Source of the DNA: Akkermansia muciniphila
Lineage (GTDB): Bacteria; Verrucomicrobiota; Verrucomicrobiia; Limisphaerales; BJHT01
DNA length: 55,725 nucleotides
Direction: 5' to 3'
NCBI GenBank assembly: GCA_945861535.1
Contig: CAMAUZ010000051.1
Span: 1 to 55,725 of the forward strand
Every line of letters starts with the position of its first letter. Within the stretch, counting starts at the first letter, position 1. Below are positions 37,646-51,176 of this stretch, piece by piece. Under the pieces are notes generated by a model. The model was not told where the DNA came from, did not search any database, and was given only the letters and a program-made list of their open reading frames with translations. A program made the translations under genes and the position numbers.

Positions 37646-39949
37646 TCATTTCGCGATTTTTTCCAGCCGGGCTTCGAGGTCGGCGAGGCGGCGTTCGAGG
37701 ACGGAGATTTTTTGGTTCTTCTCCTTCACGATGCTGTAGAGGCCCTGGATGGCGGCCAGTTCGACACCATCGAATTCCAAGGTGCTGATGCTCTTGTCGT
37801 CGCGACCGGGGAAGAACGCAGCCTTGAAGTCCTGCGCGACTGGACCGATGTGCGGCACATCGCTGTCGGCTTCGGACTTGTAGTTCCAGCGCTGGACGGG
37901 GACGTGAGCCAGTTTTTCGAGGATCGCCGCGCCATCCAACGGGGCGAAATTTTTCTTCGCATTGCGGTCTGAGGTAACGCTCCAAGCACCGGAACCGGGA
38001 GCGAGCGTGGCTATCGTGCTGCCAGCGACCATCCGAACACCGCCGCTGGCGCGGACGCTGAACTGGTTGGCGGCGGTCGAGGAGAAGATGTTGGTGCTCG
38101 AAAAATCGGACCAGACAAACGCGCCGTTGTGGGCGGCGTTGGCGAAGTATCCGGCGGCGAAGGAAACGATGCCGGTGGCGGCGTTGGCGTAGCCGCCAGG
38201 GATGGTCGCGCCGAGGCCGGTTGCGCCGTTGTAGTAGCCGCCGCCCACGCTGGCGACGCTGCCGCTGGCGACGTTGGCCTCGCCGCCGGACACGACGGCA
38301 TTGGTCCCGGAGGCAAGGTTGGCGTAGCCGCCGCCCACGAAGGCCCCGTAGCGGGAGGCGGCGTTGTAGTAGCCGCCGCCCACGAAGGAAACGGCCCCGG
38401 TCGCATCGTTCAATTCGCCACCGACCACAGCGGACTCGAAGCCGGTGGCGGTGTTGGTCACGCCCCCGGCGACGACACCCGCCGAGCCGCTGGCGATGTT
38501 GCCCTGGCCGCCGCCGACAAAGGTAACGGCGCCGCTGGCGAGGTTGGCTTCACCGCCCGCGACGGTGGATTCAAAGCCGCTGGCGAGGTTGAAGTAACCG
38601 CCGGCGACGGTGGCGGAATTGGTGCCTGCGCCATTGGCGTAGCCGCCGCCGACGGTCGCGTAGGCCGCGTTGTTGGAGACGACGTTGAGGTAGCCGCCCG
38701 CGATGGTCGCGCCGGGCGAGCTGGTCTTGATGCCGTTCGCGCCGCCGCCGCCGATGGTGCCGAAGCTCGATTGCACCAGGTTCGTGATCGCCGTGCCGCC
38801 GAAGCTGCCCGCGCCACCGCCCGCGATGGTGGCACCGACCGCGCCGCCGGAGACCGCGTTCACGGCCGCGCCGGCGATGACGTTCGGAGCGGCGGCGGAG
38901 TTGGGTTCGAGGCGCAGGGCGCGGGTGCTGTTGACTCGGACTTCGAGCGACTGGTTGTCCGTGGTGCCGAGGAAGTGCGCGGCGGGCACGGTGCCGGCGT
39001 TGCCGCCGACTTTCCACAGGGTGGTCGCGAGGCCGGTGAGATCGAGTTGCGCGGAGGAAACGGCCGCGTTGCCGAGCTGGCCGGCGCCGACGGCGTTGGC
39101 GGCGAGCTTGGCGGTGGTCACGGAGCCGTCGGCGAGCGCGGAGTTGCCGACGGCGGAGGTGGCGAGCTTGGCTGCGGTTATGTTGGCGTCGGCAATCTTC
39201 GGGGTGGTGACGGCGTTGTCGGCGAGCGTCGTGGTGCCGACGGCGGCGTTGGCGAGGTTTGCGGAAGCGACCGAGCCGGCCGCGAGTTTGGCGGACGTCA
39301 CGGAGCCGTCCGCGAGTGCGACGTTGTCGACGGCGGCGACTGCGAGTTTTGCCGCGGTGACATTGGCGTTGGCGAGTTTCGCCGTGGTGACGGCGTTGTC
39401 GGCGAGGGCATCGGTGGCGACTGCTCCGCTGGCGAGGTTGGCGGCCGCGACTGCCCCGGCGGCCAGCTTGGCGGCGGTGACGGAAGCGTCGGCGATTTTT
39501 GCAGTGGTGATCGCGGCGTCGGAGACGGTCGCGGCGACCAGGGCGTAGGCGGCGGCGGCGAGGCGTTGGTCAGGCGCGAGTTGCTGAAACGCGGCGACGC
39601 CGTCGCTGAACCAGATGCGCAGGCGGACATCGGAGTTGGCGAAGATGCTCGGGGCGATGGCGCTGGTCATGCCCGCGATCGTGGTGTCACCGAGGAGCAC
39701 GCTGACGAGGCCGTCGGCAACGGTGAGGGCGAGTGCGGTGGCAGGTTCGCCCGCGGCGGTGCCGTCGTGAGACCAGTGGGTCGCGGTGCCGGCGGCGTTG
39801 ACGAGGGCGAACTTAAATTGCCCGGTGCCGGCGAAGTTTGTGCCGCTGGCGCTGACGCGGCCCTGGTAGCTGATGATCTGCGGCACTTGTGCGGACGCAC
39901 CGAGGACCACGCTGACAGTGAGGGAGAGGGCGAGGAGGAGCTTTTTCAT
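37646..39949 (-). CDS. Exported repeat-rich fibre protein with C-terminal peptidase S74 autochaperone
   Basis: A 767-residue protein with a signal peptide (about 1-20). Residues 21-140 form a domain starting QIISYQGRVSASGTNFAGTG, often seen at the head of such proteins. Residues 141-305 are about 16 repeats of exactly 10 residues (for example DNAVTTAKLA, NANVTAAKLA). Residues 398-610 are repeats of the type VGGGYYNAASG, like Hep/Hag or trimeric adhesin stalks. Residues 655-767 are an S74 chaperone (WSVTSDRNAKKNF with Ser660 and Lys665; VPHIGPVAQDF) with a terminal coiled coil. S74 domains of phage fibres help trimerise and then cut themselves off. No other phage gene is near. A putative operator lies 65 bases upstream. 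Confidence 0.88.
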   Translation of the reverse strand: MKKLLLALSLTVSVVLGASAQVPQIISYQGRVSASGTNFAGTGQFKFALVNAAGTATHWSHDGTAAGEPATALALTVADGLVSVLLGDTTIAGMTSAIAPSIFANSDVRLRIWFSDGVAAFQQLAPDQRLAAAAYALVAATVSDAAITTAKIADASVTAAKLAAGAVAAANLASGAVATDALADNAVTTAKLANANVTAAKLAVAAVDNVALADGSVTSAKLAAGSVASANLANAAVGTTTLADNAVTTPKIADANITAAKLATSAVGNSALADGSVTTAKLAANAVGAGQLGNAAVSSAQLDLTGLATTLWKVGGNAGTVPAAHFLGTTDNQSLEVRVNSTRALRLEPNSAAAPNVIAGAAVNAVSGGAVGATIAGGGAGSFGGTAITNLVQSSFGTIGGGGANGIKTSSPGATIAGGYLNVVSNNAAYATVGGGYANGAGTNSATVAGGYFNLASGFESTVAGGEANLASGAVTFVGGGQGNIASGSAGVVAGGVTNTATGFESAVVGGELNDATGAVSFVGGGYYNAASRYGAFVGGGYANLASGTNAVVSGGEANVASGSVASVGGGYYNGATGLGATIPGGYANAATGIVSFAAGYFANAAHNGAFVWSDFSSTNIFSSTAANQFSVRASGGVRMVAGSTIATLAPGSGAWSVTSDRNAKKNFAPLDGAAILEKLAHVPVQRWNYKSEADSDVPHIGPVAQDFKAAFFPGRDDKSISTLEFDGVELAAIQGLYSIVKEKNQKISVLERRLADLEARLEKIAK

Positions 39950-40086: not shown

Positions 40087-40713
40087 TCACGGCTTCGAGA
40101 GCTGTGCCTTGGCGACGACGTTTTCGGGATCGAGGGTGAGGATGTCGTTGAAGACGCGCTTGGCATCGACGCTCTGGTTGCGGGCGGTTTTGATGAGGGC
40201 GTATTCGGTGAGGAGGCTGATGTCGGTGGGGTAGAGGATTAACATGCGGTTGAGGAGATCTTCAGCGGCATCGAGTTTTTTCAACATGCGGAAGGCGAAG
40301 GCGAGGCGGAGGTTCGCGAGGTAGTTGCTGGGGTCGATGCGGAGGACTTGTTTGGCGGCGATCTCGGCCTCGTCGTAGCGCTCCTGCGCCATGAGCGGCA
40401 GGGTGTGACCGAGCTTGGCCTCGAGGGAATCGGGCGCGGTTTTGATCGCCGCCACGTAATGAGTGCGGGCGGTGGCATAGGAGCCGATGAGGTAGTTGAG
40501 CCAGCCGAGGCGGAGATTGACGGTGTAGCCCTGGGGAAAGGCGGTGACGACCGGCGAGAGGGCCTTGATCGCGTCGGAGTAGCTCTGCGAACGCTCGTAG
40601 CGGTAGGACTTGTGGTAAGCGTCGCGGATTTCCATTTCGGTGAGCGCGGCGGCGCGGGTGGTGGTCGTGGTCGCGCCAAGGACGAGCAGGAGCAGGAGGA
40701 GCAGGTTTTTCAT
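40087..40713 (-). CDS. Periplasmic TPR protein
   Basis: A 208-residue protein with a signal peptide (MKNLLLLLLLVLGATTTTTR, cleavage near AAA at residue 23) and about four TPR units: YAIRD-type start at 30-60, LRLGWLNYLIGSYATARTHY, LPLMAQERYDEAEIAAKQVL, LAFAFRMLKKLDAAEDLLNR and YALIKTARNQSVDAKRVFND. TPR folds bind partner proteins. It lies 20 bases after the larger TPR/barrel gene and its repeats resemble that gene's N-terminal half, so one may have arisen from the other by duplication. Confidence 0.82.
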   Translation of the reverse strand: MKNLLLLLLLVLGATTTTTRAAALTEMEIRDAYHKSYRYERSQSYSDAIKALSPVVTAFPQGYTVNLRLGWLNYLIGSYATARTHYVAAIKTAPDSLEAKLGHTLPLMAQERYDEAEIAAKQVLRIDPSNYLANLRLAFAFRMLKKLDAAEDLLNRMLILYPTDISLLTEYALIKTARNQSVDAKRVFNDILTLDPENVVAKAQLSKP

Positions 40714-40733
40714 GTCAGGTTTGCGGCTGGGTT

Positions 40734-42338
40734 TTAGAAGTTCACGGCGATGGTGCCAAGGAAACTGTTGGCGGCGGCGGTGTTGGATGCGCCGAGTTCG
40801 CGGAATTCCTCGCGCGCGTACCGGAGCGCTAGGGCGGCCCGTGGAGTGAACGCGATGCGCAGATCGCCGCCGAAGCCTGCGAGGTGGCGTTCGGCGAGAT
40901 TGAAGAGCGTGTAGCCGTCGTTGCGGAGGGCGAAGGCTTGGTTTCCGGCCCAGCCGAACAGCCCGAGTGTGCAGCGTTCCCAGGTGAGCGTGAGGCGCGG
41001 CTCGACGGAGAAAAAATCGGTGCGGCCCGCGGTGACCTTTTCGCCGAGATGAATCCAGTGGGCGCGCAGATCGGCACTGAGGCTGCGGTCGAGATCGCGC
41101 CAGAGGGTCGCGCTCAGACGGGGAGTGAACTGCACGATTTCCATGCGCGGCGAGAAGTCAGGGAAGCTCGTGTAGGCCAACTGCGCGCCGGCGACGAAGC
41201 GCTGGGGAAACAAATACTCGGCGCTGCCGAAAAGCGACCAGCCGCCGTCGGTGAGGTCGTCGTCGGTCGCGACGTAGTGCCCGCCGAGGCGGAGTTTCAG
41301 GCCGTGGATGAAGTAGTTGGCGTAGGCAAAGGTGGCGTCGGTCTGGCGCAGGTGCGGGAGGAAGCGGCGCGCGATGTCGATGTGATCGATCCCGCCCTCG
41401 AAGACGTGCGCCGGATCGTGGGCGAGCATGCCGGACGCGCCGAGAAGCGTGGCGTGGCGCTTCAGCGCGGTGCGTTGGTAGGCGAGGTAGCCGCCGTAGG
41501 GGGAGAAGTTGAGGCGGAGAGTCGAGGGTGGGCGCGGCGGCGGCGCGGGGCGGGCGAAGGGGCCGGTGGATTCGACGAGGTCGCGGAAGAGTTGCGGGTT
41601 GGTGAGTTGGGCGAAGGCGGGTTCGTTGTCGGGATCGAGGGAGAAGGCTTGGGTGTAGAAGTCGCGGGCGGCGGGGAGATTTTTTTGTGCGGCGTGGACG
41701 TGGCCGAGTTCGTTGAGCAGCGCGGGATCGCTCGGGTGCGCGGGCAGGGCGCGGAGGAGGACGCGGCGGGCCTCGGCGAGTTTGCCCTGCTGGCGGAGGG
41801 CGATGGCAAGGCGAAGGGTGGCGGGGTGATTGTGCGGGTGATCGCGGAGAATGGCGCGGGCGGCGGTTTCGGCCTCGGCGAAGCGCGAGTGAGCGAGCAA
41901 CGGGAGTAGAATGGCGAGGCGGGCCTCGAGCGACTGCGGGGCGACGGTGAGCGCGGCGCGGTAGTGGGTGATGGCAGTGGCGTGATTGGTCGCGAGGTAG
42001 TGGAGCCAGCCGAGGCGGAAATCGACGGCGTAGGTGCGGGGCAGGGGAGTGAGGAGGGCGGCGGCTTGGGCGAATTCGCCGGTGTTTTCGAGCCGGAAGG
42101 ATTCGCGAAAGGCCGTGCCGGTGGGCGCGTCGGTGGGGAGTGACGGTGCGGCGACGGCCGAAAGCATGGAGAGCAGGACGAAGCCCACGGCTTGGAGCCA
42201 GAGTCCCTGTAGCCGCCGACGTGAGGAGGCGGAAACCGCGGAGCATCGCCCGATCCGCCTCCTCACGTCGGCGGCTACGCAACGTCCGCGCGGCAGCGCG
42301 TCCCTACCAGGCTGCAGCGGTCGTTCAGTTCGCCTCAT
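40734..42338 (-). CDS. TPR protein with outer-membrane beta-barrel-like C-terminus
   Basis: From ATG 42338 it has 534 residues. Residues 45-65 are a hydrophobic export signal (LQAVGFVLLSMLSAVAA). About five TPR units follow (to about residue 245; LRLAIALRQQGKLAEARRVL; LLNELGHVHAAQKNLPAARD). The rest (270-534) has alternating beta pattern and aromatic belts (SPYGGYLAYQRTALKRHATL; SLFGSAEYLFPQRFVAGAQL) and ends in Phe (TIAVNF), typical of outer-membrane barrels, so it may form a pore like YaiO or BcsC-type exporters. The first 44 codons include a complete GTAGCCGCCGACG inverted repeat; starts at GTG 42266 or GTG 42188 are alternatives. The ATG overlaps the preceding gene's end by 14 bases. Confidence 0.75.
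   Translation of the reverse strand: MRRTERPLQPGRDALPRGRCVAADVRRRIGRCSAVSASSRRRLQGLWLQAVGFVLLSMLSAVAAPSLPTDAPTGTAFRESFRLENTGEFAQAAALLTPLPRTYAVDFRLGWLHYLATNHATAITHYRAALTVAPQSLEARLAILLPLLAHSRFAEAETAARAILRDHPHNHPATLRLAIALRQQGKLAEARRVLLRALPAHPSDPALLNELGHVHAAQKNLPAARDFYTQAFSLDPDNEPAFAQLTNPQLFRDLVESTGPFARPAPPPRPPSTLRLNFSPYGGYLAYQRTALKRHATLLGASGMLAHDPAHVFEGGIDHIDIARRFLPHLRQTDATFAYANYFIHGLKLRLGGHYVATDDDLTDGGWSLFGSAEYLFPQRFVAGAQLAYTSFPDFSPRMEIVQFTPRLSATLWRDLDRSLSADLRAHWIHLGEKVTAGRTDFFSVEPRLTLTWERCTLGLFGWAGNQAFALRNDGYTLFNLAERHLAGFGGDLRIAFTPRAALALRYAREEFRELGASNTAAANSFLGTIAVNF
42209..42278. repeat. Inverted repeat GTAGCCGCCGACGTGAGGAG inside an open frame
   Basis: Left arm GTAGCCGCCGACGTGAGGAG then GCGG; right arm CCGCCTCCTCACGTCGGCGG then CTAC. 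Same family as 10820-10889. It is in frame and stop-free within the apparent 5' end of the TPR/barrel gene and would supply the basic residues just before the signal's hydrophobic core. Confidence 0.9.
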
Positions 42339-44391
42339 CTTTTCTCCTCAGTTCCCAGCCGTCGAAGGTAAGGGCGGCGATGCCTTTGTTGCGGTCGAAG
42401 ACAACGCTGCCGGTCTTGCGCAACCGCAGGGCGGTGGACTCAATCACTGTGTCGAGGCGGTTTTCCCCGGTGCAGGTCTGGGTAACGCGGACTTCGGCGA
42501 GCTTCGGCCAGAAGCTGCTGGCGACGCCGACGAGCGCGCCGCGCAGTCCGCGGGCCACCGCGCCGACGGGGACGTGGTCGTGCCATTGGATGCCATCGCG
42601 CAGCCCCAGCGGCAGCCGGGGCAAGGCGAGGAACATCGCGAGCAGGCGCGGGTCGCGGCCTTCGTAGCGATAGGAATAGTAGGTTCCCTCGTGGCGGCCG
42701 AAGGCGAGCGTGGCGCGGCCGGAATCGAAGTAGAAGGTGCCGTCGAGTCCCATGCGGACCTTGAGTTTCAGTTCGTCGTAATCGCGGCCGGCGCGGCGGA
42801 CGGAGTAGCGATACTCTTCGTCGAGGACAAAGTTGGTGGCGGCGTCGAGGCGCTTGTTGGCGTAGAGCGGTTCGATGATTTGCTTTTCCTGCGGGAGGTC
42901 GTTGGCGTGGAAGACTCCATCCGCGAGATAGCTCACGAAGCTGAAAGGTACCGTGGCGACGCCGGGAGTCTCCAGGACTTGCGCCTGCACATGGATGTGC
43001 GGCTGCGGAGAATAGCCCGAGTTACCGCAGAGACCGAGCACGGTGCCCCGTTCAACCCAGTCGCCCACTTTCACGCGCAGTGACTTGCAGGCGAAATGAG
43101 ATAGCTCCACGCAAAAACCCCGCGGATCGGCGATGACGACTAAGTTGCCCCAGTTGTTGAGCTTGTCGGGTTGATTGATGGGACTGTCGGGGAGGTCATC
43201 GACCAGGTGGGCGATGCGACCGCGGACGGGAGCGAGGACGGGCTTGTTGAAACAGAGATAGTCTTCGACCTTGGTGCCATCGTTGGTGTGAGTCTTGCCG
43301 TCGTCGCCGGTCAGGACGAAGTCATAGGCATAGCGCCAGGCACCCTTGTGGGTCCAGCCGCCGTCGAAGCCCTGCCAGACAGTCCATTTGCCGGCGAAAG
43401 GGGGGAGCAAGGTGCGTTCGGTGCCGGGATAGCGGAGGCGGTTGGCGAGATGAGTCTCGAGGGTTTCCTCGGGGGTCTTGCCGATGCGCTGGGCGACGAG
43501 GGGATTGCCAACTAATCCGAGCACATAGACCACGCCGAGCGTGACCACGGCGAACGGCAGTGTAAACGCTGGGATGCCGTAGTAGCTCCAAAATCCGGCG
43601 ATTGCATCCATGACAATGGTGGAGAGCGCGACGGCGATGGCGGCGATGCCATAGCTGCGAATGGAAGGAATGAGGAACACGCCGCCGAGGGCCATGGCGA
43701 TAAGAAGAAAGTTGAAGTTCAACGGATCGGAGAAGGCCTTCGCGGGCGAGCCTAACATGCCGTAGCGGACGGTGGTACCGACCGCATAGCCAAGGGCGGC
43801 GAGGAGGAATAGGATGCGCGAGCGGATGAGGATCAGTGCGGCCAGCGCTCCGCCCACCACGACGCTCGGAGTGAAAAGGAGCGAGCCGAAGGATTTGAAG
43901 AAGCCCGCGAGCCAGGCGGGCAGGCCGAAGTCATCATTGAGGTAGGCTGGCGAGTGCGAGCCGGCGGTGAGGAGATTGCCGTAACGCAGCGAGGCCATGT
44001 AGGCGAGGGAACTGACGACGACAAAGGGCAGACTCAGGAGCGGCAGGCGGAAATAGACGGAGAAGACATTGGCGAGGGTGACGGTGACGAGCAGTGTCAG
44101 CACTCCGGCGGCGATGCAGAAGAAGACAGCGAGCGGGGTAAGCTGAAACAGGTGGCCGATGGAGAGTCCGACCAGCAGCGGGTTGCAGGTGTAGAAGCCG
44201 GACTCGAGGAAGACTTTGCCCAGACCTATGAATCGGGCGAAGGCATAGGCGCTAAGTACGGCGATAATGCCGGCAATGCCGAGTCGGGGATTCAGCAGGG
44301 TGATACCGAAGAGAGCCGCGCCGACGAGGCCGCCTTGGAGGAAGAAGACCTCGGCGTAGGAGCGGAAGACCGCGTGGGAGAGATCCTTCAT
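42325..44391 (-). CDS. Urea-transporter-like membrane protein fused to M23 (LytM) peptidase domain
   Basis: A 688-residue fusion. Residues 10-300 are a urea-transporter-type membrane domain of about ten segments in two pseudo-repeats, with family-like signatures FYTCNPLLVGLSIG (66-79) and LNFNFLLIAMALGG (224-237). Residues 325-480 are an M23 peptidase domain with zinc ligands His348 (after GGWT), Asp357 (AYDF), and His465/His467 (PQPHIHVQ), plus the typical KVGDWVERGTVLGLCGNSGY. Residues 490-688 are a beta-rich C-terminal part. The fold predicts an inner-membrane channel with a periplasmic cell-wall or peptide hydrolase. No urease gene is near, so plain urea uptake is doubtful. Confidence 0.85.
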   Translation of the reverse strand: MKDLSHAVFRSYAEVFFLQGGLVGAALFGITLLNPRLGIAGIIAVLSAYAFARFIGLGKVFLESGFYTCNPLLVGLSIGHLFQLTPLAVFFCIAAGVLTLLVTVTLANVFSVYFRLPLLSLPFVVVSSLAYMASLRYGNLLTAGSHSPAYLNDDFGLPAWLAGFFKSFGSLLFTPSVVVGGALAALILIRSRILFLLAALGYAVGTTVRYGMLGSPAKAFSDPLNFNFLLIAMALGGVFLIPSIRSYGIAAIAVALSTIVMDAIAGFWSYYGIPAFTLPFAVVTLGVVYVLGLVGNPLVAQRIGKTPEETLETHLANRLRYPGTERTLLPPFAGKWTVWQGFDGGWTHKGAWRYAYDFVLTGDDGKTHTNDGTKVEDYLCFNKPVLAPVRGRIAHLVDDLPDSPINQPDKLNNWGNLVVIADPRGFCVELSHFACKSLRVKVGDWVERGTVLGLCGNSGYSPQPHIHVQAQVLETPGVATVPFSFVSYLADGVFHANDLPQEKQIIEPLYANKRLDAATNFVLDEEYRYSVRRAGRDYDELKLKVRMGLDGTFYFDSGRATLAFGRHEGTYYSYRYEGRDPRLLAMFLALPRLPLGLRDGIQWHDHVPVGAVARGLRGALVGVASSFWPKLAEVRVTQTCTGENRLDTVIESTALRLRKTGSVVFDRNKGIAALTFDGWELRRKDEAN

Positions 44392-44631
44392 GCGCGAGGC
44401 GCGGATGGGGAGAACGAGGGGGATGGGGAAGAAGGGGAACGTTCAACGTTCAACGTCCAACGCTCAACGTTCAGAGTAGGAACCCCGGAAGGAGCGGGGA
44501 CAACCTGAAAATGGACGTTGGGTGACTGGTGACAATACCGAGCACTTGAACGTTGAGCGTTGGGCGTTGGACGTTGAACGTTTCCCCTCATTGTTGCCTC
44601 TACTTTGCTCAACTCGCAGTTCGCCCTGCTA
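44392..44631. other. Gap inside the cassette, paired AACGTTCAACG arrays
   Basis: This 240-base gap between two minus-strand cassette genes is mostly an inverted pair of AACGTTCAACGTCCAACG arrays (44438-44583). The cassette may thus be read as more than one transcript. Confidence 0.6.
44438..44583. repeat. AACGTTCAACGTCCAACG array, two inverted arms
   Basis: Arm 1 (44438-44474) AACGTTCAACGTTCAACGTC then CAACGCTCAACGTTC; arm 2 (44547-44583) GAACGTTGAGCGTTGGGCGT then TGGACGTTGAACGTT. The arms are near reverse complements with a 72-base spacer. Confidence 0.9.
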
Positions 44632-45993
44632 TCACGCTTTTTTCAGCAGTTCGAGGTGCTTGGGGAGGCGTTCGCGGCGCTGGATGTCGGAGAGGTCTTC
44701 GGCTTCGCGGATGACTTCGACCTCACCGTTGGTGGTTACGAGGACGACGTTGGGACGATACTCGATGAACTGGAGCCACTGGGTGTTGTTATAGGCGCCG
44801 ACGGGCGAGAAGATAAGGCGCGCGCCGCGTTTGAGGGGCGGAAGTTGGATGCCTTCGTCGATGGCGTCGATGTTCATGCAGAGGGGCCCGTAGATGACGC
44901 TGGTTTCGTTGACGCCGCCGGCTTCGCGGTCGAGTTCGACGTTAAACTTATACCAGAAAGCGGTGAAGAGAAGGTTCACGCCGGCATCGGCCACATAGGC
45001 GCGGGTGCCATCGACCAGGCGTTTGGTGGCGACGACGGTGGTGACGAGATAGCCCGCCTCATCGATGAGAGCGCGGCCTGATTCTATGATGAGTTTCGGG
45101 AAGTCGCCGGGTTTGAGGGCGTGGGAGAGCGCGGTGGTGATGGTCTCGGCGTACTCGTCAATATTCGGGATCGCTACTTCGGGCGGGAGATAGACGCCCT
45201 TGAGGCGGCTCTGGGAAGGGAAGCCGCCGCCGATGTCGAGGTATTCCATGCCGAAGCCGAAGGCGTCTTCAATCTCATAGCCGAACTTCACCATCTTCTC
45301 GACTTCGCGGGCGTAGGCCTGCGGGTCCATGATGAAGGTGCCGATGTGACAGTGAAGTCCGTTGAGCTTGAGTTTGCCGCCGCTGGCCATGCGCTTGACG
45401 GCATCGAGGGCCTGGCCGGATTCGAGGTTGAACCCGAAGCGCGACCATTGGGGATAGATGCCGGCGTCGAGGTTGAGTCTCATGCCGACGTGGACGGTGC
45501 GGCCGAGTTTCTTGGCGATGGTTTCGAGGTCCACGATTTCGTCGAGGTGATCGATGTTGATGACCGCGCCTTCGGAGACGGCTTTCTCGAGGGCCGCGTA
45601 GGGTTTGTGCGGACCGTTGAAAATAATCTGGTCGCCGGGCATGCCGAGGGCGCGGGCTTTGTCGTATTCCATCGCAGAGACAACCTCGGCGATGGCGCCT
45701 TCCTGGTGCATGAGGGCGCAGACCGCCTGGAGATAGTTGGTTTTGTAGCTCCAACCAAACTGAACATTCGGGTAGCGCGTGGAGAAGGCGTTGTACATCT
45801 GCCGGTAGCGCTGGCGGGCGGTGCGCTCGGAATAGACGAAGAGTGGTGAGCCGTAGCGCTCGACGAGATCGTCGATGGAGACGCCGTCGATGTTGGTGCG
45901 GACTTTGCGGGCGTAGGCGGGGCTCCAGCCGAATTTGTTCATCAGGCCGGAGCGGAGTTTGTTAATTACGGGTTTTTCGTAGGCGAGTTTCAT
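44632..45993 (-). CDS. Fold-type III PLP-dependent decarboxylase (LysA/ornithine-decarboxylase-like)
   Basis: A 453-residue cytoplasmic enzyme of the alanine-racemase-fold group. PLP lysine: Lys84 in WSYKTNYLQAV. Other sites: HCHIGTF (214-220), phosphate loop GGGFPS (255-260), ESGRAL (304-309), the active-site cysteine Cys372 in GPLCMNIDAIDEG, and Tyr401 in VGAYNNTQW. These are the hallmarks of diaminopimelate, arginine, ornithine and carboxynorspermidine decarboxylases; the order of residues around Cys372 differs from standard LysA (GPxCESxD), so I do not call it lysA. It probably decarboxylates an amino acid or a conjugate made with the neighbouring ATP-grasp enzyme. Confidence 0.88.
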   Translation of the reverse strand: MKLAYEKPVINKLRSGLMNKFGWSPAYARKVRTNIDGVSIDDLVERYGSPLFVYSERTARQRYRQMYNAFSTRYPNVQFGWSYKTNYLQAVCALMHQEGAIAEVVSAMEYDKARALGMPGDQIIFNGPHKPYAALEKAVSEGAVINIDHLDEIVDLETIAKKLGRTVHVGMRLNLDAGIYPQWSRFGFNLESGQALDAVKRMASGGKLKLNGLHCHIGTFIMDPQAYAREVEKMVKFGYEIEDAFGFGMEYLDIGGGFPSQSRLKGVYLPPEVAIPNIDEYAETITTALSHALKPGDFPKLIIESGRALIDEAGYLVTTVVATKRLVDGTRAYVADAGVNLLFTAFWYKFNVELDREAGGVNETSVIYGPLCMNIDAIDEGIQLPPLKRGARLIFSPVGAYNNTQWLQFIEYRPNVVLVTTNGEVEVIREAEDLSDIQRRERLPKHLELLKKA

Positions 45994-45996
45994 GGG

Positions 45997-46031
45997 GAAT
46001 TACGAGTTGCGAATTTCGAATGGCGAATTGA
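45997..46031. repeat. AATTACGAGTTGCGAATTTCG array
   Basis: GAATTACGAGTTGCGAATTT then CGAATGGCGAATTGAG, an AT-rich word array in the 51-base gap between decarboxylase and ATP-grasp genes. Confidence 0.65.
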
Positions 46032-46044
46032 GAGGTGAAGGTAA

Positions 46045-47088
46045 TTACGGTGCTTCGCCGCGGGTGATGGCTTTTTGGAAGGTGCTCATGTCGGTGACTA
46101 ACTCGTAGGTGTAGCGGACGAAGAGTTTGCCGGCTTCGTAGTCGGGGGTGGGCGGGACGGGGAGGCCGAGGCAGTGGCGGACCATGCGGGCGGGGAGGTT
46201 GACGCCGACGCCGGTGGCGAAATAGACCCAGGCGGGGAAGCGGGGATTGATCTCGATGAGGAAGACATCTTCGTCGCGGACGATGCACTCGAGCTCGAAG
46301 GGGCCGCGCCAGCGGTATTCGCGGATGAAGCGCTGGGTGGCTTCGAGCATGGCGGCGTGTTTGATGGTGACGCCGGTCCAGATTTTGCCGAGGGCGGTGA
46401 CGCTCATTTTCTTGATTCCGACCAGGCCGAGCGAGCCGCCCGCGCCGTCGCCGACGCCGATGACGTTGAGTTCTTCGCCGGTCACGATTTCCTGTACGAT
46501 GATCGGATAGCCCCATTCGGCGACGAGGGCGTGGTAGTGGCCGATGGCTTCGGCATAGGTATAGGCGCGGTAGGCTTTGTAGAAGCTACCTTTGACCATG
46601 ACAGGTAGTTTGATTTCCTCGATGGCGGCGGCGAATTGGTCGAGGGAGCTGACGACGCGGGTCTTGGGCAGTCCTATATCGATGCGTTCGGCGACTTCGA
46701 TGAGCTTGTCTTTGCCGCGCAGTTTGAACTGTTCCATTGTGGGCAGGAAGGTCTTGAAGCCGGCCTCGGCGAGCTTGCTGGCGCGTTTGATGTAGAGGGG
46801 TAGCTCGGCATCGAAGTTAGGGATAAGGAAGTCGATGCCTTGCTGGTCGCGGATGAAGGCGAGGCGGTCGAAGTAGGCGTCACCGTCGCCGGAGGGGTAG
46901 GGCATGATATAGGATTTGTCCACGACCCAGTCCATGTAGATGCCGGGTTCCATGGCGTCGTAGGCGAGGCCGAGGATGCGGGCGTGGAGGTCGGGGTCTT
47001 CCTTGAGGCTGCGGGCGACGCCAACGCCGGGGCCGGGGTTGTCAATGGCGTTGATGCCTGAGAGGGCGATGGTGAGGGAGGGGGGCAT
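46045..47088 (-). CDS. ATP-grasp ligase
   Basis: A 347-residue ATP-grasp enzyme of the CarB/PylC-like (CPSase L chain) type. The N-terminal pre-ATP-grasp part contains LSGINAIDNPGPGVGVARSL; the ATP-binding part has LPVMVKGSFYKAYRAY (161-176), IIVQEIVTGEELNVIGVGDG and the metal site FLIEINPRFPAW with Glu279, Asn281 and Arg283. Such enzymes activate a carboxylate with ATP and join it to an amine or thiol. The pairing with a PqqD-like protein (216 bases upstream) and a PLP decarboxylase (51 bases downstream) suggests that it ligates an amino acid to a carrier or peptide. The substrate is unknown. Confidence 0.88.
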   Translation of the reverse strand: MPPSLTIALSGINAIDNPGPGVGVARSLKEDPDLHARILGLAYDAMEPGIYMDWVVDKSYIMPYPSGDGDAYFDRLAFIRDQQGIDFLIPNFDAELPLYIKRASKLAEAGFKTFLPTMEQFKLRGKDKLIEVAERIDIGLPKTRVVSSLDQFAAAIEEIKLPVMVKGSFYKAYRAYTYAEAIGHYHALVAEWGYPIIVQEIVTGEELNVIGVGDGAGGSLGLVGIKKMSVTALGKIWTGVTIKHAAMLEATQRFIREYRWRGPFELECIVRDEDVFLIEINPRFPAWVYFATGVGVNLPARMVRHCLGLPVPPTPDYEAGKLFVRYTYELVTDMSTFQKAITRGEAP

Positions 47089-47144
47089 GGGGGAGTGATG
47101 CGTGATGCGTGACTGGTAATTGCTGATTAGTCGGGGGAGAGGGG

Positions 47145-47169
47145 AAGTAATTAGTGATTAGTAATTAGC
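47145..47169. repeat. TTAGTGATTAGT word array, copy 3
   Basis: AAGTAATTAGTGATTAGTAA then TTAGC; just upstream, GTGATGCGTGACTGGTAATT is a weaker related word. Confidence 0.75.
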
Positions 47170-47200
47170 AGGGGTGGGCGGGAGGTGCGGTGCGGTGATG

Positions 47201-47280
47201 GGTAGGGCGCGGCTGTCCTCAGCGCGCCGCGAGGGTGGGATTACGCTCCAGCGGCGCGCTGGGGACAGGCGCGCCCTACC
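47201..47280. repeat. Inverted repeat GTAGGGCGCGTCTGTCCTCA, copy 2
   Basis: Left arm GGTAGGGCGCGGCTGTCCTC then AGCGCGCCGC; right arm GCGGCGCGCTGGGGACAGGC then GCGCCCTACC. Same design as 25949-26026. Confidence 0.9.
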
Positions 47281-47303
47281 ATTGGGGTTGGGCATGAGGT
47301 CGA

Positions 47304-47540
47304 TCAGGCCAGATTGAGGTTGCGGAGGCGGCTGCGGAAGTCGGCGCAGTCGCGGCGGGCTTCTTCGAGGGTGACTTCGTATTTCTCGGTGAGGAGTTGG
47401 GCGGCTTCGTCGTCGCCGCGGCCGTCTTTGAGGGCTTGGAGGAGGAAGAGGCCGGTGGCGCTGACTTGGAAGCTGTCACCGGTGTTGGGGTCGAAGACGA
47501 AGCCTTCGTCGCTGAGGGCAAGTTGGGAGAGGGTGCGCAT
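47304..47540 (-). CDS. PqqD-like (RRE-type) small protein
   Basis: A 78-residue protein with the PqqD pattern: a first strand LSDEGFVFDPNTGDSFQVSA, a helix TGLFLLQALKDGRGDDEAAQ, then a winged-helix part LLTEKYEVTLEEARRDCADF ending RSRLRNLNLA. PqqD-like domains bind leader peptides of ribosomal peptides and present them to a modifying enzyme. There is no radical SAM partner here; the neighbour is an ATP-grasp enzyme. The start ATG 47540 is firm; the frame upstream of it overlaps the secreted-protein gene in another frame and is not real. Confidence 0.82.
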   Translation of the reverse strand: MRTLSQLALSDEGFVFDPNTGDSFQVSATGLFLLQALKDGRGDDEAAQLLTEKYEVTLEEARRDCADFRSRLRNLNLA

Positions 47541-47577
47541 AGGTTTATTTTTTTGGGGGAGAGTGGCCGTGGGCCGA

Positions 47578-48426
47578 TCAGGGGCGGCGGTCGTCGTTGT
47601 CGCGGCGGTTCTTGCCATCTTTTCGACCATCCTTCTGGCCATGCTTCTTCTCAGCCTTGCGGTCTTTGTTTTGGTCGTTCTTTTGCTCGCGTTTCTTGTC
47701 GGCCTTGCGGTCGCGGTCGTCGCGGGGGGGAGGGGGCGGCTGGCGATCGGAGTGGAAGTCACGGCGGTCGTCGCGGAGACGGTCGTCGTTGCGCTCGGGA
47801 GGGCGGTTGGGGGCATCCGGGCCGCGGCGTTGGGGGCCGAAGTTGCCGCGCGGGGGCGTGGGGCGATCGCGGTCGGGACCGAAGGCCGGGCCACGGCGTT
47901 CGGGACTGAAGGCGGGGCCGCGGTTCTCGGGGGAGAAACGCCGCGGGTCGGGGCCACGGAAGTCGGGGCGTTGCGGTGTCAGCGCATGACCGCAGTGCGG
48001 GCAGACTTGAGGGGTGGTGAAGGGCGGGCGAAAGGCTCCGGGTGGCGGACCGAAATTGCGGTCTCGGCTGCTCATGTCGGGGCGACCTAGCTCGCGGCGA
48101 TCAACGGGCGATGGGGGACCGGGGGGGCGTCCGCTGCGGTCGCCTTCGCGGAAATGAGACGGCGGGCCACCGCCTTGGGGGCCACGGCGGAAGTCGTCGG
48201 GGCGGGTGTGGGCGCGAGGCTCGGAGGCGGGGCCGGGTGGGCGCGGGGCGCGATCACTTTCGCGGACGCGGTCGCCTTCGCGAGTGCGGTCGCTTTCACG
48301 CGCGCGGGAGGGTGGCGGGGCGTCGTCGTTGCGGGGGCGTCGTGGGGCGTCGTTTTGCGCGAAGGCCGCGGTGGCGAGACTGGAGACTCCGAGGAGCAGG
48401 AGCAGACTGAGGGATGTGGTTTTCAT
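47578..48426 (-). CDS. Secreted Arg/Asp/Pro-rich low-complexity protein
   Basis: A 282-residue protein with a clear signal peptide (MKTTSLSLLLLLGVSSLATA, cut after AFA-Q near residue 24). The mature protein is highly charged and probably disordered: repeated RESDR and REGDR words (43-58), PERRGPAFGPDRDRP-like units (150-190) and a Lys/Asp/Arg tail. A lone CPHC motif (Cys142, Cys145) followed by GHAL looks like half a zinc site. No family recognised. It is the first gene of the minus-strand run, 37 bases before the PqqD-like gene, and divergent from the two-component system, a layout like cpxP beside cpxRA, but it has no CpxP/Spy sequence features. Confidence 0.75.
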   Translation of the reverse strand: MKTTSLSLLLLLGVSSLATAAFAQNDAPRRPRNDDAPPPSRARESDRTREGDRVRESDRAPRPPGPASEPRAHTRPDDFRRGPQGGGPPSHFREGDRSGRPPGPPSPVDRRELGRPDMSSRDRNFGPPPGAFRPPFTTPQVCPHCGHALTPQRPDFRGPDPRRFSPENRGPAFSPERRGPAFGPDRDRPTPPRGNFGPQRRGPDAPNRPPERNDDRLRDDRRDFHSDRQPPPPPRDDRDRKADKKREQKNDQNKDRKAEKKHGQKDGRKDGKNRRDNDDRRP

Positions 48427-48728: not shown

Positions 48729-49496
48729 ATGGCAGGCATGGTACAACAGCGTCCCCCGAGCAACCCGAGCGCTGGCGGCGAGCGGCGCACGCGCGTGCTG
48801 GTGATCGACGACGATCGCGAGTTGTGCTGGCTGATCCGGGATTATCTGGAGCCGCTGGGTTACGAGGTGTTGGCGGTGCATCACGGCGTCGAGGGCGCGG
48901 AACGGGCGGTGGCGGAGGCGTGGGGTGCGGTGATTCTCGACGTGATGTTGCCGGGCCTGGATGGCTTCGAGGTGCTCAAACGCATTCGCAAACAGTCGGA
49001 CGTGCCGGTGCTGATGCTCACGGCGCGCGGCGAGGAGGCGGACCGCATCGTGGGCTTGGAGGTGGGCGCGGATGATTATCTGCCGAAGACATTTTCCACG
49101 CGGGAACTGCTGGCGCGGCTGCGGGCGGTGATCCGGCGCAGTTCGCGGGCGGCGGTGAAGACGGCGGACGCGCCCGAGGCGGAGATTGTGGTCGGGCAGT
49201 TGCGCATCAAGCCCGATGCGCGCACGGCGGCGCTGGGGGACAAGCCGCTGGAGCTGACGACGCTGGAGTTTGATCTGCTGGCGTGCCTGGCGCGGGCGCG
49301 GGGGCGGGTGAAATCGCGCGAGCAACTGATCGACGTGATCGCGGACCGCAACTACGACGTGTTCGACCGCTCGATCGACGTGCATGTGTGGTCGCTGCGG
49401 AAGAAGCTGGGCGATGATCCGAAGAACCCGCGCTTCATCCGCACGATCCGCGCGGTGGGGTACATGCTGATTAATCCGGATGCGGAGGGGAGTTGA
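48729..49496 (+). CDS. OmpR/PhoB-family response regulator (CpxR-like)
   Basis: A 255-residue two-domain regulator. The receiver domain (about residues 20-140) has the acidic pair in VLVIDDDRELCWLI, the phosphoacceptor Asp71 in VILDVMLPGLDGFEVL, and LMLTARGEEADRIVGLEVGA then DDYLPKTFSTRELLARLRAV, closest by eye to CpxR. The Pro that usually follows the conserved Lys is Thr. The winged-helix domain (about 155-250) has LELTTLEFDLLACLARARGR, VKSREQLIDVI and the recognition helix SIDVHVWSLRKKLGDDP. The first 20 residues are an extra disordered leader; ATG 48738 is an alternative start. The kinase gene follows after three bases. Confidence 0.93.
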   Translation: MAGMVQQRPPSNPSAGGERRTRVLVIDDDRELCWLIRDYLEPLGYEVLAVHHGVEGAERAVAEAWGAVILDVMLPGLDGFEVLKRIRKQSDVPVLMLTARGEEADRIVGLEVGADDYLPKTFSTRELLARLRAVIRRSSRAAVKTADAPEAEIVVGQLRIKPDARTAALGDKPLELTTLEFDLLACLARARGRVKSREQLIDVIADRNYDVFDRSIDVHVWSLRKKLGDDPKNPRFIRTIRAVGYMLINPDAEGS

Positions 49497-49499
49497 ACG

Positions 49500-51176
49500 A
49501 TGACCGCGCGCCTGCCGCTCTACGCGAAGATTCTGCTGTGGTTTTTCCTGAACCTCGCGCTCCTGGCGTTCGCGTTTTATCTGCTCGTGCGCGCGGAGTT
49601 TCGCTTCGGCATGGACTGGCTGCTCTCGACGGGCGCGAGCGAGCGCATCCAGGCGGTGAGCGACATAATCACCGCCGAGTTGAATGAAAATCCACGTGCT
49701 GAGTGGAGCACGGCGCTGAAGCGTTTCGATGCGGCGTATCGCGTGAAGTTCCAGGTGTTCCGCGAGGACGGCGCGCAACTGGCCGGCGAGGCCATCGAAT
49801 TGCCCGCCGAGGTGCGCGAACGGCTGGCCATGCCCAATCGCCCGCCGCAGCGGCCGGGGCCGCCGCCGTGGGGTTCGCGGATGCAGCCGCCGAATGAACT
49901 GCCAGGGTTTGAGCGGCCGCCGGGGGAACGGCTGCCGCCACCGCTCAAACCGGTGGAAACGCCGGAGCAGCCGCGCCTCGACGGGTCGCCGGCGGGATTG
50001 CCCGCGGGGCCGACGGAACCTGGTTTGCCGGGCGCGCTGCCACCCGAGGCCCGGCGGCCGCTGCCGCGCCCCGACGATCCGTTTCCGGGACTGCTCCGCG
50101 AGCCGCTGCCCGGGGACGAAGGGCCGGTGGTGCATCCGAAAACGATGCTGCGCACGAGCGATCCCACGCGCTACTGGATGCTCGTGCGCACGCGCGTGAG
50201 CGATGGGGAACGACGACGGCCGCAGCCCGCGACGCTGATCGCGATGTCCACGTCGTTGCAGGGCGGCGGTTTGTTTTTCAATCCGAAGCCGTGGCTCGCG
50301 GTGGGCTTGGGCGCGGTGGTGTTCTCGGCGCTGCTGTGGTTTCCGTTCATCCGCGGAATCACGCGGTCCATCGGCCGGATCAGCGAGGCGAGCCGGCGGA
50401 TTTCCGAGGGGCGTTTCGATGTGCGCGTGACGGACCAGCGGCGCGATGAACTGGGCCAGCTCGGCGAGACGATCAATCACATGGCGGAGCGGCTCGAGGG
50501 CCTGGTGACGGGGCAAAAACGCTTCCTTGGCGACATCGCGCACGAGCTGTGCTCGCCGCTGGCCAAGCTGCGCGTCGCGCTGGGCATCATCGAGCAGCGC
50601 GCGGATGAACAGCAGCAGCGCTACGTTTTGTCCGCGGCGGAAAAAGCGGAGCACATGGCGACGCTCGTCAACGAGTTGCTTTCGTTTTCCAAGGCCTCGC
50701 TCGGGGTCGCGGCGACCAAGCTGGAACGCGTCGCGGTGCGCGACGTGGTGCAGAAGGCGGTGCAACGCGAGACCACCGAGGGCTGCACGATCCGGGTCGA
50801 GGCGGGCGAAGATCTGGCGGTGCTCGCCGAGCCGGAGCTGCTGACGCGGGCACTGGCGAATCTGGTGCGGAACGCGATCCGACACGCAGGCCACGCGGGG
50901 CCGATCACCGTGTCCGCCGTGCGCGAAAAGGACGAGGTGTGCCTGACGGTGGCGGATTCGGGACCGGGCGTGGCGGAGGCGGAACTGCCCCGCATCTTCG
51001 ATCCGTTTTATCGCGTCGATGCCTCGCGCGATCGAGCGACGGGCGGCGTGGGACTCGGGCTGGCCATCGTGAAAACGTGCGTGGAAAGCTGTCGCGGGAC
51101 GGTGAGCTGCCGCAACCGCGTGCCGTCGGGGTTGGAGGTGACGATCCGACTGGGGGTGGCGGGGAAGGGTGTGTAA
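49500..51176 (+). CDS. Sensor histidine kinase (CpxA-like) with proline-rich periplasmic region
   Basis: A 558-residue inner-membrane kinase. TM1 lies at about 9-30 and TM2 at about 262-283. Between them is a periplasmic part with a long Pro-rich stretch (about 115-205). Then come HAMP (284-335), HisKA with His348 in GDIAHELCSPLAKLRVALGI, and the ATPase domain with NLVRNAIRHAG, VADSGPGVAEAELPRIFDPF and GGVGLGLAIVK. The HELCSPL H-box is as in CpxA. It is paired with the regulator upstream. The proline-rich sensor region is longer than in CpxA and might bind a disordered or Pro/Arg-rich ligand such as the divergently encoded secreted protein, which is my speculation. Confidence 0.93.
   Translation: MTARLPLYAKILLWFFLNLALLAFAFYLLVRAEFRFGMDWLLSTGASERIQAVSDIITAELNENPRAEWSTALKRFDAAYRVKFQVFREDGAQLAGEAIELPAEVRERLAMPNRPPQRPGPPPWGSRMQPPNELPGFERPPGERLPPPLKPVETPEQPRLDGSPAGLPAGPTEPGLPGALPPEARRPLPRPDDPFPGLLREPLPGDEGPVVHPKTMLRTSDPTRYWMLVRTRVSDGERRRPQPATLIAMSTSLQGGGLFFNPKPWLAVGLGAVVFSALLWFPFIRGITRSIGRISEASRRISEGRFDVRVTDQRRDELGQLGETINHMAERLEGLVTGQKRFLGDIAHELCSPLAKLRVALGIIEQRADEQQQRYVLSAAEKAEHMATLVNELLSFSKASLGVAATKLERVAVRDVVQKAVQRETTEGCTIRVEAGEDLAVLAEPELLTRALANLVRNAIRHAGHAGPITVSAVREKDEVCLTVADSGPGVAEAELPRIFDPFYRVDASRDRATGGVGLGLAIVKTCVESCRGTVSCRNRVPSGLEVTIRLGVAGKGV

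Follow-up and report, generated by a model that had tools for sequence, protein, structure and literature searches.

What does a bacterium make with a PqqD-like protein, an ATP-grasp ligase, a decarboxylase, a urea-type channel fused to a peptidase and an outer-membrane barrel encoded side by side? The question is raised by a stretch of 55,725 nucleotides from Akkermansia muciniphila (assembly GCA_945861535.1, contig CAMAUZ010000051.1, forward strand), referred to here as the window, in which a first-pass annotation had recognised genes for a PqqD protein, an ATP-grasp ligase, a fold-III pyridoxal phosphate (PLP) decarboxylase, a urea transporter fused to an M23 peptidase (UT-M23) and a tetratricopeptide repeat (TPR)/barrel protein. 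All of these genes are present, with the catalytic residues of the enzymes intact in sequence alignments, and comparison of sequences makes it near certain that they and a further TPR gene form one conserved unit of six genes (Table 1). As a system this cassette appears to be new, although it is built from known families. Our tentative reading, to which we give somewhat less than an even chance, is of an autonomous system for biosynthesis and export, in which the ribosomally synthesised and post-translationally modified peptide (RiPP) recognition element (RRE) of the PqqD protein would dock a tail on the decarboxylase, ligation would be followed by decarboxylation of the conjugate, the M23 peptidase would act at the urea transporter (UT) channel and export would proceed through the barrel.

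Conservation of the six-gene unit

GTDB genomes were scanned once with the ATP-grasp protein of the window, giving 60 loci at 50-98% identity, and the proteins of the window were compared with these loci by tblastn to establish gene content and order. The order PqqD, ATP-grasp, decarboxylase, UT-M23, barrel, TPR and the strand of the genes are kept in nearly all loci that lie on a long enough contig, and the intergenic gaps are mostly of a few bases or are replaced by overlaps. With phylum taken from the title of the record, the approximately 60 loci belong to at least 14 phyla: Aquificota, Verrucomicrobiota, Pseudomonadota, Thermodesulfobacteriota, Cyanobacteriota, Planctomycetota, Ignavibacteriota, Bacteroidota (Kapaibacteria), Gemmatimonadota, Campylobacterota (Desulfurellales), Walliibacteriota, Fibrobacterota, Calditrichota and Caldifarciminota. 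Two loci titled Proteobacteria, placed among the Verrucomicrobiota, may be misnamed bins. Such a grouping goes far beyond what chance would produce, and the test that the first-pass annotation had named, conservation of the neighbourhood across phyla, thus comes out in favour of a unit. The order is rearranged in two Chitinispirillaceae loci (L065 and L067), where the UT-M23 and TPR genes lie upstream, and the genes are still linked.

The genes travel as a set. Pairwise distances of their proteins correlate (ATP-grasp and decarboxylase, r 0.91; ATP-grasp and UT-M23, r 0.90; PqqD and ATP-grasp, r 0.81), and among 289 Verrucomicrobiota genomes the ATP-grasp, the full-length UT-M23 and the cassette decarboxylase occur in exactly the same seven. 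By our own arithmetic, which ignores kinship, the chance of two independent sets of 7 among 289 coinciding is about 3e-14. Eight further genomes of the 289 match the M23 part of UT-M23 only, and one other has a distant decarboxylase whose match starts after the tail region. The ATP-grasp was found in 42 of 136 Aquificota genomes (31%), very small genomes among them, and in 3 of 194 cyanobacteria. The Kapaibacteria nest inside the Aquificota in the tree with good support, which suggests transfer of the unit between lineages. An origin from mobile elements or phages was considered and set aside, the ATP-grasp having no match in plasmids and the decarboxylase none in phages.

There is one clear exception to this linkage. 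The cyanobacterium USR001 (L053) has the ATP-grasp without the rest of the cassette, and neither the cassette decarboxylase nor UT-M23 was found in its genome. Its lone ATP-grasp adjoins a two-component system and a Metal_resist/LTXXQ (Spy/CpxP-like) protein (L053 9364-9864 and 9950-11029). A divergent subtype, present in three verrucomicrobial genomes (L079-L081), keeps the PqqD, ATP-grasp, decarboxylase and UT-M23 genes. It is linked to a Ser/Thr kinase with a zinc-ribbon-like start and TPR (L079 10215-12687, L080 7143-8846, L081 3237-5466), FHA proteins adjoin it in L079 and L081, and sigma-factor-like genes are close by.

Enzymes of the cassette

Pfam and NCBIfam recognise the domains of the cassette proteins, and because every NCBIfam equivalog score falls under its cut-off, these are not known to NCBIfam (June 2026) as named proteins. 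The PqqD gene is kept upstream of the ATP-grasp gene in nearly all loci; the top NCBIfam match of its product is lasso_PqqD, below the cut-off. The ATP-grasp proteins share 50-80% identity between phyla and have many invariant columns, including E265, E267, E279, N281 and R283. Their nearest solved structures are 2pn1 and the large subunit of carbamoyl-phosphate synthase, a match that is uninformative on substrate. The score against PF15632, the Ter-operon ATP-grasp family, is marginal (29.7 bits, cut-off 29.1), and no Ter genes occur among the 25 commonest families of 90 upstream neighbours.

The decarboxylase is more informative. Its nearest solved structure is the N-citrylornithine decarboxylase FigC (7kh2), well ahead of the diaminopimelate decarboxylases, and the alignment of the two shares WSRFGF, FNGPYK, GPxCM and VGAYN. 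It scores 233 bits against NF041039 (FslC N-citrylornithine decarboxylase; cut-off 500) and 220 bits against TIGR01048 (diaminopimelate decarboxylase; cut-off 298). The residues K84, H216, E304, R307 and C372, invariant as are G255-257, and M373 provide the catalytic residues and the C-M loop of the FigC clade, and CMNID stands where the C-E-S motif of diaminopimelate decarboxylases has CESSD. This clade also includes SbnH, AcsE, MccE and BtrK, of which SbnH and AcsE decarboxylate citryl conjugates (PMC7857480). Since its nearest relative is an N-citrylornithine decarboxylase, of a clade that works on conjugated substrates, the substrate of the cassette enzyme is probably an amino acid that has already been ligated. 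The citrate-facing residues of FigC, H357 and R387 (PMC7857480), align with I375 and Q405, so the citrate contacts are not kept, and the specificity helix (T344, W347, Y348) lacks the acidic residues that bind free basic amino acids. Because of these two changes the conjugate is probably one other than citryl-ornithine.

The leader-like tail and the ligand of PqqD

Wherever the start of a cassette decarboxylase could be read, an N-terminal extension of about 28 residues stands ahead of the core, preceding the region that can be aligned with FigC and the diaminopimelate decarboxylases. The consensus is M-K-x-x-Y-E-K-P-x-I-x-K-L-x-x-G-x-M-N-K-F-G, and the motif YxxPx[ILVM] is present in all 55 readable decarboxylases, in none of 60 ATP-grasps and in none of 57 PqqDs; at this position the divergent subtype carries FEPPRL..LSG or related sequences. 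YxxPxL is known as the conserved leader motif of lasso peptides, the leader being bound by a PqqD-type RRE (PMC6784204, PMC10368454). A hidden Markov model of the tail had no match in Pfam or NCBIfam. An exact DNA probe for YEKPx(I/V)xK, applied to eight genomes, had a single match in five of them, each time within the decarboxylase gene, and no match in the other three, their own decarboxylase genes included. A conserved small open reading frame (ORF) that could encode a precursor peptide was not found in or beside the unit in the approximately 60 loci, a remote precursor of unlike sequence being outside the scope of this search. Given the lasso-like motif, the best score to lasso_PqqD, the probe matches and the lack of a small ORF near the operon, it is most likely that the PqqD protein serves no separate peptide and instead binds the leader-like decarboxylase tail. 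The proposal that a leader-binding type of PqqD binds a carrier or peptide is thereby kept as to the RRE family and not as to a separate peptide client.

The same observations bear on ordinary RiPP logic, in which PqqD would bind a precursor peptide encoded elsewhere, the ATP-grasp and decarboxylase would modify it, M23 would remove the leader and the peptide would be exported, the tail being a copy of a leader or a coincidence. The combination of an RRE protein, an ATP-grasp and a peptidase-transporter fusion is RiPP-like, and lasso_PqqD is the nearest relative of PqqD. Nevertheless, no precursor gene with a leader was found in the loci, the exact probe finds the decarboxylase gene alone in five genomes, and UT channels pass molecules of the size of urea rather than peptides. 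We consider this alternative unlikely.

The channel-peptidase fusion and the route outwards

For the UT domain of UT-M23 the scores are 187 bits against PF03253 and 104 bits against the urea transporter equivalog TIGR03441 (cut-off 275). In the AlphaFold2 model of UT-M23 (pLDDT 89.6, pTM 0.84) this domain superimposes on the urea transporter dvUT (3k3f) with Z 36 over 304 residues, and on human UTs with Z also about 36. An alignment with dvUT extends nearly to the end of that protein; in it the dvUT residues Q24 and E187, which we take to be pore residues, are replaced by E14 and S/A170, respectively. To our knowledge, UT-M23 is the first peptidase-fused urea-type channel. The zinc residues of the M23 domain (H348, D357, H465, H467), as well as H432, are invariant in 29 sequences, and its fold matches LasA/DipM/LytM and other M23 proteins with Z about 13. 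The C-terminal beta-rich domain is conserved and modelled with pLDDT mostly above 90; it is barely covered by the matches in the Protein Data Bank (PDB), and it had no match of its own among the PDB matches listed for the full UT-M23 model.

The first-pass annotation had placed cutting by M23 in the periplasm. Models of SLC14 proteins have ten transmembrane (TM) helices, with the N- and C-termini both intracellular (PMC4718215); in 47 family members Lys and Arg lie mostly in the loops predicted to be inside, and no hydrophobic stretch follows residue 300. Because the UT family has both ends inside, the loop charges agree and nothing hydrophobic follows, the M23 domain is predicted to be on the cytoplasmic side, and a periplasmic M23 is disfavoured.

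It is on this point that remodelling of the envelope turns, in which a periplasmic M23 would act on peptidoglycan while ligase plus decarboxylase would supply an amine to modify the cell wall or surface, the UT domain letting it through. Relatives of M23 are mostly secreted hydrolases, the fold match to LasA/DipM/LytM agrees with such a role, and the two-component neighbours of the cassette are of an envelope-stress type in the window. The topology and charge bias of the UT domain, however, place M23 inside, and the outer-membrane barrel and PqqD are left unexplained, so we regard it as rather improbable.

In most other phyla the barrel protein consists of the barrel only (about 290 amino acids). 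The barrel ends in F, W or Y in 31 of 35 sequences, with the alternating pattern of an outer-membrane beta-signal, and the TPR proteins mostly start with a signal-peptide-like stretch. Together UT-M23, the TPR protein and the barrel would form a path from the cytoplasm to the outside.

Table 1. Position and assignment of the cassette genes, their domains and the adjoining seventh gene in the window
Feature	Coordinates	Strand	Basis or remark
Whole cassette	40087-47540	minus	six genes; transcription order PqqD, ATP-grasp, decarboxylase, UT-M23, TPR/barrel, TPR
PqqD-like RRE protein, 78 aa	47304-47540	minus	PF05402, E 1.5e-10
ATP-grasp ligase, 347 aa	46045-47088	minus	PRK12767-like; PF15632 just over cut-off
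Fold-III PLP decarboxylase, 453 aa, N-citrylornithine-decarboxylase-like	44632-45993	minus	nearest solved structure 7kh2, E 2.9e-82
N-terminal leader-like tail of decarboxylase, MKLAYEKPVINKLRSGLMNKFG	45928-45993	minus	YxxPx[ILVM] motif
UT-M23 fusion, 688 aa	42325-44391	minus	urea-transporter and M23 domains
Urea-transporter domain of UT-M23, residues 1-316, 10 TM	43444-44391	minus	PF03253, E 3.9e-55
M23 peptidase domain of UT-M23, residues 323-510	42862-43425	minus	PF01551; invariant zinc residues
C-terminal beta-rich domain of UT-M23, residues 520-688	42328-42834	minus	AlphaFold2 model; no recognised family
TPR protein with C-terminal outer-membrane beta-barrel, 534 aa	40734-42338	minus	TPR families; homologues at same place in loci
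Secreted TPR protein, 208 aa	40087-40713	minus	signal peptide in sequence; TPR families; conserved last gene of unit
Secreted repeat protein with C-terminal S74 intramolecular chaperone domain	37646-39949	minus	PF13884; seventh gene, lineage-specific (Verrucomicrobiota)

Proposed mechanism and alternatives

The order of ligation, decarboxylation and export put forward in the first-pass annotation is the most natural reading of the gene set. In the scheme that we favour, PqqD as an RRE would bind the tail of the decarboxylase and so recruit this enzyme to the ATP-grasp ligase. The ligase would form an amide between an amino acid, via a side-chain carboxylate or amine, and a partner; the decarboxylase would then strip the conjugate of its free alpha-carboxylate, as happens to the conjugates on which FigC and BtrK act. 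M23, facing the cytoplasm at the UT channel, might hydrolyse the conjugate, trimming or releasing it, or hand it over; a small neutral or amine product could cross the UT pore into the periplasm and leave the cell by way of the TPR protein and the barrel of the outer membrane. The docking, the order of the steps, the role and side of M23 and the direction of transport are all points that we infer. It is also possible, with less confidence than we give to the scheme as a whole, that the cassette represents a new class of system, in which an RRE reads a leader-like tag on an enzyme and not on a precursor, thus coupling an ATP-grasp to a decarboxylase, and a cytoplasmic M23 on a urea-type channel releases and exports the product.

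Several observations weigh against this scheme. No precursor or carrier was found for M23 to cut. A periplasmic site would suit the stand-alone relatives of the M23 domain better, since most of these proteins are secreted or anchored in the membrane. UT channels are passive, and outward transport is our reading of the gene set. The spacing from the tyrosine of the tail to the next glycine is off by two residues from what we take to be the leader form. Finally, docking was not seen when the natural in-frame PqqD/ATP-grasp/decarboxylase read-through of L065, its stops read as Ser and with in-frame bridging rows in the alignment, was modelled with AlphaFold2: the domains folded well and the tail was disordered (pLDDT about 27-42), a result made weak by the short linkers. 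Disorder in this model would also agree with a flexible docking tail.

A carrier model is harder to maintain than either alternative above, and we think it improbable. The substrate amino acid would here be built on a protein carrier, either the decarboxylase tail or PqqD, as in the BtrI/BtrJ/BtrK, LysW and peptide-aminoacyl-ligase pathways, and cut off by M23. An ATP-grasp with a BtrK-like decarboxylase follows the logic of butirosin synthesis, BtrK is a relative, and N19 of the tail has a counterpart in the divergent subtype too; no acceptor residue is conserved, however, K20 of the tail being lost in L035 and in the divergent subtype, the C-terminus of PqqD varies among homologues, and cutting of the tail would consume the enzyme. 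Least probable of all is a small metal-binding product (a metallophore or metal-stress metabolite), for although the nearest decarboxylase comes from siderophore synthesis and metal-related genes (CusA/CzcA beside four Aquificota cassettes, a CDF transporter in L041 and the Metal_resist/LTXXQ protein in L053) lie near some loci, no metal family is enriched among the 90 upstream neighbours, the conserved core, which is as far as this comparison extends, has no TonB receptor or NRPS-independent siderophore (NIS) synthetase of the IucA/IucC type, and R387, which binds citrate in FigC, is replaced by Q405.

Genes around the cassette

The range first proposed for the cassette, 42325-48426, encloses the core enzymes, leaves the TPR/barrel and TPR genes outside and takes in an ORF at 47578-48426 that does not belong to the conserved unit. 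This ORF, just upstream of PqqD, encodes an Arg/Pro/Asp-rich secreted protein with a single CPHCGH motif and has no counterpart in other loci. No Pfam family is represented more than three times among the 90 upstream neighbours, and neighbours are not shared outside the core. A repeat protein with an S74 chaperone domain lies downstream of the cassette in nine loci including the window, mostly in Verrucomicrobiota, as a lineage-specific surface protein beside the export genes. A two-component system (an OmpR/CpxR-type regulator and a CpxA/RstB-like kinase with a Pro-rich sensor region) is divergent from the cassette at 48729-51176 of the window, and some ten further loci also have two-component genes close to the cassette. 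In Hydrogenothermaceae and relatives (L033, L036, L038, L070), genes for CusA/CzcA-type heavy-metal resistance-nodulation-division (RND) efflux and DUF2231 membrane proteins are directly upstream of PqqD, and L041 has the cation diffusion facilitator (CDF) transporter gene in this place and MerA further upstream. Metal resistance was rejected as a general context; it holds in some Aquificota only.

Relationship to known systems

The claim that no described pathway has this gene set is borne out by the equivalog scores and by the open-access literature (5.39 million papers), in which no description was found, although subscription journals were not covered and an earlier mention there is possible. 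The closest parallel is the FigC/FslC rhizoferrin pathway, where ligation also comes first and the conjugate is then decarboxylated by an enzyme with GPxCM and VGAYN in common with that of the cassette. The cassette ligase is however an ATP-grasp and not a NIS synthetase, H357 and R387 have become I and Q, and the leader-like tail, PqqD and export by UT-M23 and barrel are additions. Butirosin synthesis by BtrJ and BtrK has the same two enzyme classes in the same order, an ATP-grasp ligase and then a fold-III decarboxylase, but its carrier is an acyl carrier protein (ACP), of which none was found in the cassette, and the cassette decarboxylase is closer to FigC. With the lasso-peptide B1 protein, a PqqD-like RRE, the cassette has in common the RRE family and a YxxPxL-type motif, located here on an enzyme and not on a precursor, whereas the B2 peptidase and the asparagine-synthetase-like cyclase C are not part of the conserved core of six families.

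The UT domain has the full 10-TM fold of the UT/SLC14 transporters represented by dvUT but is fused to M23 and a further beta domain, and the conserved core lacks a urease gene. The peptidase-containing C39-ABC exporters offer an analogy of working only, a peptidase being fused to an inner-membrane exit on its cytoplasmic side; neither domain is related and the cassette is without ATP-driven transport.

The cassette is kept intact in at least 14 phyla and its ATP-grasp occurs in almost a third of the Aquificota genomes searched; it must therefore make something useful. If docking of the decarboxylase tail by PqqD is true, the role of RREs would be widened from the binding of peptide leaders to the tagging of enzymes for assembly. 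The cassette also opens the way to a new metabolite that is exported.

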